Both the position numbers and the translations under genes were made by a program. The notes beneath the pieces were generated by a model. That model had not been told where the DNA came from. It made no database searches and saw only the letters and a list, made by a program, of their open reading frames with translations. From Clostridia bacterium (GTDB taxonomy: Bacteria > Bacillota > Clostridia > Oscillospirales > CAG-382), in NCBI GenBank assembly GCA_017516825.1, contig JAFXBC010000055.1, positions 1-64,000 on the forward strand: a stretch of 64,000 nucleotides of DNA. Direction: 5' to 3'. Positions 47,441 through 50,420 of the stretch are shown piece after piece; position 1 is the first letter of the stretch, and the number at the start of each line of letters is the position of its first letter.

Positions 47441-48661
47441 TCAAAGGTCTTTTTCCAAAAGAAGGGTCAACAGGTCTTCCCCTTTTTCCAGGTACAGCCC
47501 GCCGTCGAAGCCGCTTTGCTCGCAATAGGTGCGGATGCCGCTGTCTTTTTCCTTTTGGGAATCGTACAGCACGAAGGGGACGGCGTCACGGGTATGGGTG
47601 CGGACGTACACGGGAGTGGGATGATCGGGAAGCAACAGGAGGCGGAAGGGCTCGCCCGTCTGCTTGAAATACGCCAGCAGGGGGGCAAGGATCTCCCGAT
47701 CGATGCATTGGATGGCTTTGATCTTTTCGGAATAATTGCCCTGGTGGCCGCATTCGTCGGGAGCCTCCACGTGGATATACACGAACTCCGCACCTGTCTC
47801 CAGCTCACGGATGGCGGTACTTTGCTTCCCTGCGTAGTTGGTATCCAATCCGCCGGTGGCCCCCTCCGTAATAGGGGCATTCATACCTGCACAAAGGCCG
47901 ATGCCGCGGATGAGGTCCACGGCGCAGACCACGGAGGCCTTCAGACCCGTTTTCTCCTCAAAGGAAGGAAGCGCGGGCTTCTTCCCGGGGCTCCAGAACC
48001 ACAGGGAGTTGGCCTTCCGCTTTCCTGCGGCGGCGCGGGCAAGGTTCACGGGGTGGTGATTCAGCAGGTCGAAAGATGCCTTTTGCAGCTCCCAGAAGGC
48101 CTGAGAAGAAAGGTTCACCGGGGCGTGATCCCCGATCCGTCTGCCGATGATGTCGTGGGGACGGGAAAAGTCCGTGAAATCCGGGCAATCCTTCCAGATC
48201 AAGCAATGGCGGTAGCTGACCCCGGTGTAGAAGGTACGGTATTCGTTGCCGAAGGCGGCCTGCACGGCCTTGATCAGCTCGTCGGCCTCCTCGGTAGTGA
48301 TCTCCCCTGCGGAGTGGTCGATCATCCGTCTGTCCTCGTAGCAGGTCTCCTCCTCGGAAAGGCAGACCACGTTGGCACGGATGGCGGTCTCGTCAGCCTG
48401 CATTTTGATCCCGATGCTTGCCGCCTCCAGGGGAGAACGGCCTTTGGAATACACCTTGGGGTCGTAGCCCATGATGGCCAAGTTTGCAGTGTCGCTTTCG
48501 GGAACCATGCCCTCCGGCACGGTGCTGACTCTGCCGTTGATGCCCTTGGATGCGATATAGTCCATGGCGGGCTTGACGGCGGCGGAAAGAGGGGTCTTGC
48601 CCTCCAGCTCCGACAAAGGCAGGTCTGCCATGCCGTCGCCCACGAGAATGATATACTTCAT
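47441..48661 (-). CDS. apgM: Cofactor-independent phosphoglycerate mutase, archaeal type (ApgM)
   Basis: A 406-residue alkaline-phosphatase-superfamily enzyme of the ApgM group, interconverting 3- and 2-phosphoglycerate in glycolysis; some relatives are annotated as homoserine-kinase-like. Hallmarks: IILVGDGMADLPL (metal-binding D9), VPESDTANLAIMGYDP (nucleophile S56), GRSPLEAASIGI, VHVEAPDECGH-like YIHVEAPDECGHQGNY, and LLLPDHPTPVYVRTH near the end. The leader carries a palindrome over the ribosome site. Its nearest purine-rich site is 14 bases from ATG 48661, which is long. Confidence 0.92.
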   Translation of the reverse strand: MKYIILVGDGMADLPLSELEGKTPLSAAVKPAMDYIASKGINGRVSTVPEGMVPESDTANLAIMGYDPKVYSKGRSPLEAASIGIKMQADETAIRANVVCLSEEETCYEDRRMIDHSAGEITTEEADELIKAVQAAFGNEYRTFYTGVSYRHCLIWKDCPDFTDFSRPHDIIGRRIGDHAPVNLSSQAFWELQKASFDLLNHHPVNLARAAAGKRKANSLWFWSPGKKPALPSFEEKTGLKASVVCAVDLIRGIGLCAGMNAPITEGATGGLDTNYAGKQSTAIRELETGAEFVYIHVEAPDECGHQGNYSEKIKAIQCIDREILAPLLAYFKQTGEPFRLLLLPDHPTPVYVRTHTRDAVPFVLYDSQKEKDSGIRTYCEQSGFDGGLYLEKGEDLLTLLLEKDL

Positions 48662-48773: not shown

Positions 48774-48802
48774 TTGACAAAATCCATAGAGCGTGGTATC
48801 AT
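48774..48802 (+). promoter_or_regulatory. SigA-type promoter of PqqD-S26-SLOG operon
   Basis: TTGACA (48774-48779), 17-base spacer, TATCAT (48797-48802), 35 bases before the ATG. Confidence 0.78.
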
Positions 48803-48836: not shown

Positions 48837-49100
48837 ATGCATATCAAGGACGGCTTTCTCCTGCGGGAAACGGCAGGTAAGTTCATCGTTCTGCCCTTGG
48901 GCGGGGAGCTGGATCTGGGCAGCCTTATCACCCTCAACGAAACGGGGGCTTTTTTGTGGCGGATCTTGGAGGACGGCGCCAGCCGTGAAGAGCTGTTGGA
49001 AGCCCTTCTGGCGGAATACGACGTGGACAAGGAACGGGCGGAAAAGGATCTGGACGCCCTGCTTGCCAAGATGAACGCAGTGGGCGTTCTTGAGGACTGA
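48837..49100 (+). CDS. PqqD-like (RiPP recognition element fold) protein
   Basis: An 87-residue protein of the PqqD family: MHIKDGFLLRETAGKFIVLP, then ITLNETGAFLWRILEDGASR, then a helical half LLEALLAEYDVDKERAEKDL. The fold is a winged helix that in PQQ and other RiPP systems grips the leader peptide of a precursor. ATG 48837 has AAAGGAG 8 bases upstream. The next gene, an S26-like peptidase, begins 4 bases after the stop. No RiPP precursor, radical SAM or cyclase gene is visible nearby, so the partner protein is unknown. Confidence 0.85.
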   Translation: MHIKDGFLLRETAGKFIVLPLGGELDLGSLITLNETGAFLWRILEDGASREELLEALLAEYDVDKERAEKDLDALLAKMNAVGVLED

Positions 49101-49104
49101 GGGC

Positions 49105-49575
49105 ATGGGAGAAAAGGAAAGTCTCCCCCTGGCCGCCTTGGAGGACGTGATCCGCGAGGAGCTGGCAAGCGGCGGCAGTGCGGTGATCAACATTCGCGGA
49201 CAGAGCATGCTTCCCCTGATGAAGGAGGGGGTTTGCAACGTGCGGATCGTGCCGGCAACCTTCCCTTTGAAGAGATACCGGATCCCCCTCTACAAGCGGG
49301 AGGACGGGCAGTTCGTGCTACATCGGGTGATACGGGTGAAGAAGAACGGCTACGTTTGCCGCGGAGATCATCAGATCCAAAAGGAATTCCCCGTGACGGA
49401 TTCCATGATCATCGGCGTGGCGGATGCCCGCATCGTGAAGGGGAAGGAAAAGCCCTTGCGGTCGGCGTTTGCCCTGGTGCAGGGCTGCTTTTTGGCGGAG
49501 ACGGCGTGGTTGCGGGGCATGGCACGGCTGTGCATCGGCAAGCTTGGCCGCCTATGGAAAGGAACAAAGAAATGA
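49105..49575 (+). CDS. S24/S26-like peptidase (signal-peptidase fold)
   Basis: A 156-residue protein resembling the catalytic part of signal peptidase I. The serine lies in INIRGQSMLPLMKEG (S38). The second conserved box reads GQFVLHRVIRV, with a histidine where bacterial type I enzymes have an active lysine region, the pattern of the Ser-His (archaeal/ER, SipW-like) enzymes. A third box is GYVCRGDHQ. A hydrophobic segment near FALVQGCFLAETAW may touch the membrane but there is no typical N-terminal anchor. It follows PqqD by 4 bases and overlaps the SLOG gene as ATGA. Substrate unknown. Confidence 0.78.
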   Translation: MGEKESLPLAALEDVIREELASGGSAVINIRGQSMLPLMKEGVCNVRIVPATFPLKRYRIPLYKREDGQFVLHRVIRVKKNGYVCRGDHQIQKEFPVTDSMIIGVADARIVKGKEKPLRSAFALVQGCFLAETAWLRGMARLCIGKLGRLWKGTKK

Positions 49576-49940
49576 AGGAAGAATTGCGGGTCGCCGTCAT
49601 TGGTTCCCGTGGGATCGATCGGGCGGATCTTTCCCGCTATATACCGAAGGAGGCCACCATGCTGATCTCCGGCGGAGCCATGGGAGTGGATTCCCTTGCG
49701 GAGGCCTACGCCGCGGAAAAGGGGTTGCCCATCAAGGTGATCAAGCCCCAATACAGCTTGTTCGGGAAAAGAGCCCCTCTTGTGCGGAACCGGCAGATCG
49801 TGGAGTGTGCGGATCTGGTGGTGGCCATCTGGGACGGAGAGTCTTCGGGAACGGCTTACACCATCGATTACGCCCACGAAAAGGGTGTGCCCGTGCGGCT
49901 TTACATCCCGCCGACAAAAAACGGCAAAAACAAAGCATAA
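49572..49940 (+). CDS. SLOG-fold (DUF2493/DprA-like) nucleotide-binding protein
   Basis: A 122-residue Rossmann-like protein: LRVAVIGSRGIDRADLSRYI, then TMLISGGAMGVDSLAEAYAA, then IVECADLVVAIWDGESSGTA, matching the SLOG superfamily (DprA, LOG, DUF2493) that binds nucleotides or nucleotide-derived ligands through the GGAxGVD loop. No cofactor or DNA-binding extension. ATG 49572, with AGGA 8 bases upstream, overlaps the S26-like peptidase stop. The terminator at 49939 follows immediately. In other genomes SLOG proteins act as sensors or enzymes on nucleotide signals; its role here is not evident. Confidence 0.8.
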   Translation: MKEELRVAVIGSRGIDRADLSRYIPKEATMLISGGAMGVDSLAEAYAAEKGLPIKVIKPQYSLFGKRAPLVRNRQIVECADLVVAIWDGESSGTAYTIDYAHEKGVPVRLYIPPTKNGKNKA

Positions 49941-49984
49941 AACCACCTACGGCCGGTGAAAACTATCGGCGAGGTGGTTTTTTT
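49939..49984 (+). terminator. Terminator whose right arm also carries the next ribosome site
   Basis: AAAACCACCT (49939-49948) pairs with AGGTGGTTTT (49972-49981), followed by more T. The GAGGTGG of the right arm lies 8 bases before the TTG start of the next gene. Confidence 0.72.
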
Positions 49985-49985
49985 G

Positions 49986-50420
49986 TTGAAACGGTTATGT
50001 CTTCTGTTCGGGATCTGCGGGGCGGTCTACGTATTGCTGGAGCTGATCTACCGCGGGAGATCCCATATTTCCATGTTCTTTGCGGCGGGACTTTCCGCCG
50101 TGGGGATCTGGCTTTGCTGTAACTGCCGCAGGGTGAAGCAAAGATGTCTGGCCCTGAAATGCCTTTTGGGAAGCGCTCTCATCACCACGGTGGAGTTTTG
50201 CACGGGAGTGGTGGTGAATCTGTGGATGCGGCTTGCGGTATGGGATTATTCCGCCATGCCGATGAATCTTTTGGGGCAGGTGTGTCTCCCCTTTTCTCTG
50301 GTGTGGTTTCTCCTTACCCTGCCTATTCTGGGATTGGGGAAGCTGATCTGGGGTCCTTACTTCTCCAGAGAGGCCACGAAACGGGAGATCCCCGCTTCCC
50401 CTGCCTCGTCGGGAGAATAG
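49986..50420 (+). CDS. CmpB-like putative ABC transporter permease
   Basis: A 144-residue membrane protein of the PF06541 (ABC_trans_CmpB) type: four to five hydrophobic segments, a charged loop NCRRVKQRCLALKC and the family phrase ITTVEFCTGVVVNLWMRLAV then WDYSAMPMNLLGQVCLPFSL. Start choice: TTG 49986 has GAGGTGG 8 bases upstream; GTG 49956 would lie in the terminator stem with no ribosome site. The 3' end runs 64 bases into the convergent galT gene. The transported substrate is not known. Confidence 0.75.
   Translation: MKRLCLLFGICGAVYVLLELIYRGRSHISMFFAAGLSAVGIWLCCNCRRVKQRCLALKCLLGSALITTVEFCTGVVVNLWMRLAVWDYSAMPMNLLGQVCLPFSLVWFLLTLPILGLGKLIWGPYFSREATKREIPASPASSGE

Follow-up and report, generated by a model that had tools for sequence, protein, structure and literature searches.

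The adjacent genes for a PqqD-type protein and an S26-like protease in the genome of a Clostridia bacterium (GCA_017516825.1; G000 below) probably encode a trans-acting maturation pair for short YxxP peptides, and the SLOG gene that follows them is likely to be a separate gene that shares their promoter. The window in which they lie is the whole stretch of DNA analyzed, 64,000 nucleotides of contig JAFXBC010000055.1. In this pair, a RiPP recognition element (RRE) would be combined with a Ser/His S26-type candidate leader peptidase.

The PqqD gene is separated from the S26-like gene by a 4-base gap, and the latter overlaps the SLOG gene by the four bases ATGA (Table 1). A near-consensus σ70-type promoter, whose sequence is conserved in relatives G002, G010 and G015, precedes the genes, and a strong intrinsic terminator begins at the SLOG stop codon. 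From the promoter, the spacing and the terminator, the three genes are predicted to be one separate transcription unit; the earlier note, which had described a trio with 4-base gaps or overlaps on one transcript, was thus exact in its coordinates. Comparison with the nearest relative, G002, gave dN/dS values of 0.20 (PqqD), 0.24 (S26-like) and 0.21 (SLOG), and this purifying selection excludes chance ORFs for all three genes. The divergent apgM gene, the anchor gene of the locus, is outside the proposed mechanism. A CmpB-like ORF, which overlaps the end of galT on the other strand, was considered as a fourth member of the unit and rejected: it starts inside the terminator hairpin and was recognised only in G000, G002, G010 and G015.

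Table 1. Features of the locus (positions in the window).
Feature	Position	Strand	Description
apgM	47441..48661	-	cofactor-independent phosphoglycerate mutase; PF10143; divergent anchor gene of the locus
promoter, sigma-70-type	48774..48802	+	TTGACA-17-TATCAT, 11/12 matches, TG before -10 (extended -10)
PqqD gene	48837..49100	+	87 aa, ATG 48837 to TGA 49100
S26-like gene	49105..49575	+	156 aa, ATG start
SLOG gene	49572..49940	+	122 aa, ATG start, TAA stop 49940
intrinsic terminator	49939..49984	+	hairpin and U-tract from SLOG stop; -24.1 kcal/mol, z -4.46
CmpB-like membrane protein ORF	49956..50420		PF06541; GTG start

In a Pfam search, the PqqD protein matched PF05402 above the gathering threshold (E=3.4e-18, 66.2 bits versus 23.4). 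The only solved structures matched by a profile of 24 of its relatives were lasso B1 proteins and similar chaperones, the best being TbiB1 (5v1u, 1.9e-10) and TfuB1 (6jx3, 2.6e-10). Scores against the NCBIfam lasso_PqqD models were below cut-off, as was the score against PqqD_rel_X (TIGR04353; 23.9 bits, cut-off 35). The RRE fold proposed in the earlier note agrees with both the Pfam match and the nearest solved relatives, and the protein can be classed, by its sequence, as a putative B1-type, lasso-B1-like RRE. YxxPxL leaders are the recognition target of lasso B1 proteins (PMC10368454).

The S26-like protein had no match in the Pfam search, and its best NCBIfam match, the signal peptidase I model TIGR02228, was below cut-off (1e-5, 25.2 bits versus 51.85). 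Residues G32, S34, M35, P37, H73, R74, G87, D88 and E94 are invariant across 58 S26-like sequences. In the AlphaFold model (pLDDT 94) the protein adopts the signal-peptidase/LexA fold; the model aligns with E. coli LepB with a Z of 11.3 (rmsd 2.1 over 95 residues) and with the C-domains of LexA and the lambda repressor with a Z of about 10. The invariant set carries the Ser-His signature of SEC11/SipW enzymes; LexA uses a Ser-Lys dyad. No transmembrane segment was predicted (the highest 19-residue hydropathy is 1.07), and since no segment is hydrophobic enough for a membrane anchor, the protein is probably cytosolic. Sequence and model together point to a soluble S26/SEC11-like Ser-His protease (Ser34, His73 and Asp88) and candidate leader peptidase. 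The Ser-His signal-peptidase-like identity suggested earlier therefore withstood inspection of the serine and histidine, which do not vary, and of the fold.

A family of short ORFs (28-56 aa) recurs at S26 loci: among 113 such loci, it was found at 24 by gene clustering and at about 30 by motif, which answers positively the question, raised earlier, of whether a short conserved ORF recurs near the pair. The leader consensus is [YF]xxPxxEIIxFxxEDVITTS, followed by a variable tail. The distance from the Tyr to the Ser of D(V/I)I(T/S)xS is exactly 20 residues in 14 out of 14 peptides from the window's genus (g1) and g7. In some peptides the motif is followed by no more than 4-8 residues, which is too little for a typical RiPP core. 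Three family members tested against NCBIfam models gave no match.

No precursor with the motif was found inside the 64-kb window, so that the earlier statement that none is near is right for the window; a YxxP peptide is encoded elsewhere in the genome, on contig C6 (G000:C6, L241:8182-8331; E=3.2e-8). This peptide, MTKKEYCAPALEIVVLEQEDVITASAPDAANKTPVAGTTGNKGVWDTWA, carries YCAPAL as its YxxPxL leader and is unlinked to the pair, and its ORF has a 4-base overlap with the end of a gene for a 1059-aa secreted protein. A prepilin-like gene, the gene for the 1059-aa protein, that of a dockerin protein and a small ORF make up its neighbourhood (L241:3755-8999), and the surroundings of the peptide in G002 (L242) are similar. 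The genes of unlinked YxxP peptides commonly follow a gene for a large secreted protein directly, or overlap it (L269, L270, L273-L275, L278-L280, L286 and others). At L272 (G206:C23) a 348-codon ORF with S-layer-homology-like repeats ends, in frame, in the peptide sequence, either through a fusion or through an in-frame overlap. Some genomes (G138, G297 and G317) have 7-10 copies of the peptide.

Among 295 genomes of the order, 49 had both S26 and the peptide, 30 S26 alone, 10 the peptide alone and 206 neither (p=4e-25); the corresponding counts by genus were 40/13/3/92 (p=3e-21), both tests treating genomes or genera as independent and being not fully corrected for phylogeny. The sets were transcribed from printed search tables. 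Although the profile for the peptide derives from loci linked to S26, the association holds with unlinked pairs alone: the peptide lies more than about 10 kb from S26 in 37 of the 49 genomes, and removal of the 12 linked ones left 37/30/10/206 (p=4e-19). A recognisable peptide was lacking in 30/79 S26 genomes, and S26 in 10/59 peptide genomes. Within the window's genus, the peptide was present in 10/10 genomes with an intact trio versus 2/14 others (10/0/2/12, p=7e-5). In G010 and G015, two close relatives whose pair carries deletions, the peptide is also missing, a coupled loss.

The pair extends well beyond the window's genus. Among 80 named S26 loci, nearly all from Clostridia, PqqD was present at 64, an HprK-like kinase at 60, NTP_transf_5 at 39 and SLOG at 6; the survey was queried with a narrower S26 alignment, the first, broad one being too diverse. 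A 568-aa ABC exporter was found at 49 and a SPASM radical-SAM enzyme at 14 of the 113 S26 loci. PqqD and S26 thus form the conserved core of a module that is widespread in Clostridia. Within the taxonomic family of the window's genome, the HprK-like kinase usually precedes the PqqD-S26 pair; its matches to the ScmC and HprK_rel_A models are weak and below curated cut-offs. No HprK-like gene was found in G000, whose assembly is 91% complete. HprK genes elsewhere in the window's genus were considered as the module kinase and discarded, as they occupy separate loci near metG, without PqqD. G000 has an NTP_transf_5 gene unlinked to the pair (G000:C29, L264:7284-8408), downstream of spoIIGA-sigE-like genes.

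Complete-looking clusters that are good candidates for experiments were seen at L156, L194 and L208 (including Ruminococcus flavefaciens); they contain a large secreted-type protein, a YxxP peptide, a SPASM enzyme, HprK, PqqD (not at L208), S26, the ABC exporter and NTP_transf_5. At L046, L047, L049 and L050, all from one genus, proteins of 57-61 aa that end in DP(L/N)GSYTG...VQDADDL are encoded near S26 and near a DUF362-like gene. These small proteins (c17) were rejected as precursors: they are without YxxP and lie near the DUF362-like gene.

The SLOG protein is above the gathering thresholds of PF02481 (6e-9, 35.7 bits versus 29.6) and PF10686 (2e-8, 34.4 versus 28.2) and has a DprA/YpsA/ShosA-like Rossmann fold, in keeping with the nucleotide-binding-fold identity assigned to it earlier. 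The phosphoribohydrolase motif of LOG proteins, PGGxGTxxE, is absent from it; its sequence shows WDGESSGTAYTI. The family is present in 199/295 genomes of the order. SLOG genes flanked by apgM and without the pair were found in G007 and G023 of the window's genus and in G026-G029 of another genus. In G010 and G015 the promoter, SLOG and the terminator are intact, whereas S26 is deleted in both and PqqD also in G015.

These data bear on one reading put forward in the earlier note, a single functional unit of three genes in which a nucleotide signal, sensed by SLOG, controls the cleavage of peptides by PqqD-S26. Such a unit would fit the shared promoter, the 4-base spacing, the ATGA overlap and the single terminator, as well as the order of the trio, conserved in about a dozen genomes within the window's genus and in two from a second genus. 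However, over the 295 genomes, with hits of E below about 1e-15 counted, SLOG showed an association neither with S26 (31/48/71/145, odds 1.3, p=0.33) nor with the peptide (odds 1.27, p=0.45), and outside the two genera, which belong to one family, SLOG adjoined S26 nowhere in the genomes searched. Retention of SLOG beside the pair in relatives, on which the note had let its proposal depend, was thus confined to these genera, an outcome that by the note's own terms counts against SLOG, and the co-occurrence of SLOG about which it had asked did not emerge from the counts. Most Clostridia have the same module without SLOG, and SLOG is still there at loci from which the pair is absent or has been deleted. 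We reject SLOG as a functional partner on the grounds of co-occurrence, synteny and the deletion alleles, and regard nucleotide gating as very unlikely. SLOG is a widespread nucleotide-binding-fold protein, co-transcribed with the pair and functionally separable from it. Since it is unassociated with S26 and persists where the pair is absent or deleted, its common promoter with the pair would reflect the history of the locus rather than a mechanism. The absence of the pair at this locus in G007 and G023, the deletions in G010 and G015, and the loss from the locus of an HprK gene that was not found in the genome could also mean that an ancestral HprK-PqqD-S26 module is decaying, the pair being what remains of it, close to loss in the genus and with no current substrate. 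This is unlikely given the dN/dS of 0.20-0.24 on PqqD and S26, the intact catalytic motif and the presence of the peptide wherever the trio is intact in the window's genus (10/10 genomes).

Two further explanations concern what the protease acts upon. The structural likeness to the LexA and lambda-repressor C-domains would allow the S26-like protein to be a LexA-like self-cleaving regulator that forms a split repressor with the winged-helix fold of PqqD. RREs bind peptides, though, and the nearest solved relatives of the PqqD profile are lasso B1 proteins, while the protease has the Ser-His and the HR and GDN motifs of signal peptidases, not the Ser-Lys dyad; we therefore find a split repressor hardly credible. 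The true substrates might instead be the large secreted proteins, with the small peptide as an adaptor or tag for their processing, as could be suggested by the peptides directly downstream of such genes and by L272, where an SLH-like ORF ends in frame in the peptide. The S26 protein is without a membrane anchor, however, and the module itself includes the peptide in many Clostridia, so this is again an improbable account.

We thus favor maturation of YxxP peptides by PqqD and the S26-like protease. The invariant Ser/His, the B1-type RRE and the strong co-occurrence with YxxP peptides lend support to that part of the earlier note which read the two as peptide-binding and peptide-cleaving. PqqD would bind the YxxPxL leader of the C6 peptide and present it to the cytosolic Ser34/His73 protease, which would cut at a site that we place near the invariant D(V/I)I(T/S)xS, releasing the C-terminal part, which is variable and mostly acidic. 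Elsewhere in the Clostridia, the HprK-like kinase, the ABC exporter, NTP_transf_5 and sometimes the radical-SAM enzyme may belong to the same pathway; kinase, nucleotidyltransferase and exporter would act downstream where present, an order that we infer. The window's lineage would have lost the kinase from the locus and kept NTP_transf_5 elsewhere.

More tentatively, and with rather less than even confidence, we suggest an undescribed, widespread clostridial class in which B1-like RREs and a soluble S26-type Ser-His leader peptidase serve scattered YxxP/EDVITTS peptides in trans. The peptides of this class might typically be encoded directly behind genes for large secreted proteins, and its RREs might be those left over by lasso searches, a suggestion that we make with the same reserve. 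In the RRE-Finder survey, the discrete lasso RRE was the top model for almost 8,000 proteins, and no more than about 4,000 of these were accompanied by a lasso leader peptidase and a cyclase, so that about half are left without these enzymes (PMC7470986). For part of these unpaired lasso-B1-like RREs, the module would provide a testable partner protease and substrate family, and the trans arrangement would explain why local cluster searches miss the substrate. The S26-like protein, if the proposal is true, would represent a new type of enzyme that cleaves the leaders of ribosomal peptides; S26/signal-peptidase-type enzymes are unmentioned in a review of RiPP leader proteases (PMC10885120). Given the link with large secreted proteins, the module may have a cell-surface role in gut Clostridia. 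The combination of PqqD with S26, an HprK-related kinase or YxxP in Clostridia is undescribed in the open-access papers searched. RREs, S26 proteases and SLOG proteins are known families, and what appears to be new, on the sequence evidence, is the pairing of an RRE with S26 in peptide maturation.

Each component has known counterparts. SEC11/SipW/archaeal-type signal peptidases (S26B) share the GxSMxP, HR and GDN motifs, the Ser-His pair and the fold with the window's protease, which differs from them in having no predicted transmembrane segment, in its RRE partner and in scoring below family cut-offs. YspA/YpsA/DprA SLOG proteins have the same Pfam matches and fold, whereas the relatives found here are stand-alone proteins of 110-122 aa without PGGxGTxxE. 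The HPr-rel-A system and the SynChlorMet cassette (ScmC/ScmD) likewise have an HprK-like kinase beside PqqD, but the matches here are all below curated cut-offs; to our knowledge, an S26 protease is not part of the definition of either. SCIFF/ranthipeptide systems also combine a small peptide with an RRE, and in some relatives a SPASM maturase is encoded next to the YxxP peptide. The peptide and the RRE differ, however, and G000 has a separate, ordinary SCIFF locus (G000:C55, L265:4125-5740), whose peptide and radical-SAM maturase include the only other PqqD-like domain found in the genome.

There is also a likeness in parts to the lasso B1/B2/K/N machinery of paeninodin and pseudomycoidin, which likewise has a separate PqqD-type B1 and a YxxPxL leader (PMC8498205, PMC10368454). 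Clusters of this type also include an HPr-kinase homologue, nucleotidyltransferase tailoring and an ABC exporter, as do the related loci here (PMC8498205; rumen survey PMC7533575). A lasso peptide system is nevertheless ruled out, because none of the 63 genomes of the family has a match to the B2 protease, PF13471, over cut-off, and G000 has no match of any score; inspection of the recurrent neighbours by eye revealed no asparagine-synthetase-like lasso cyclase C. Compared with lasso systems, an S26-type Ser-His protease stands in place of B2, the peptide is usually unlinked, and the leader spacing is 20 residues from Tyr to Ser versus the lasso positions of Tyr -17 and Thr -2.
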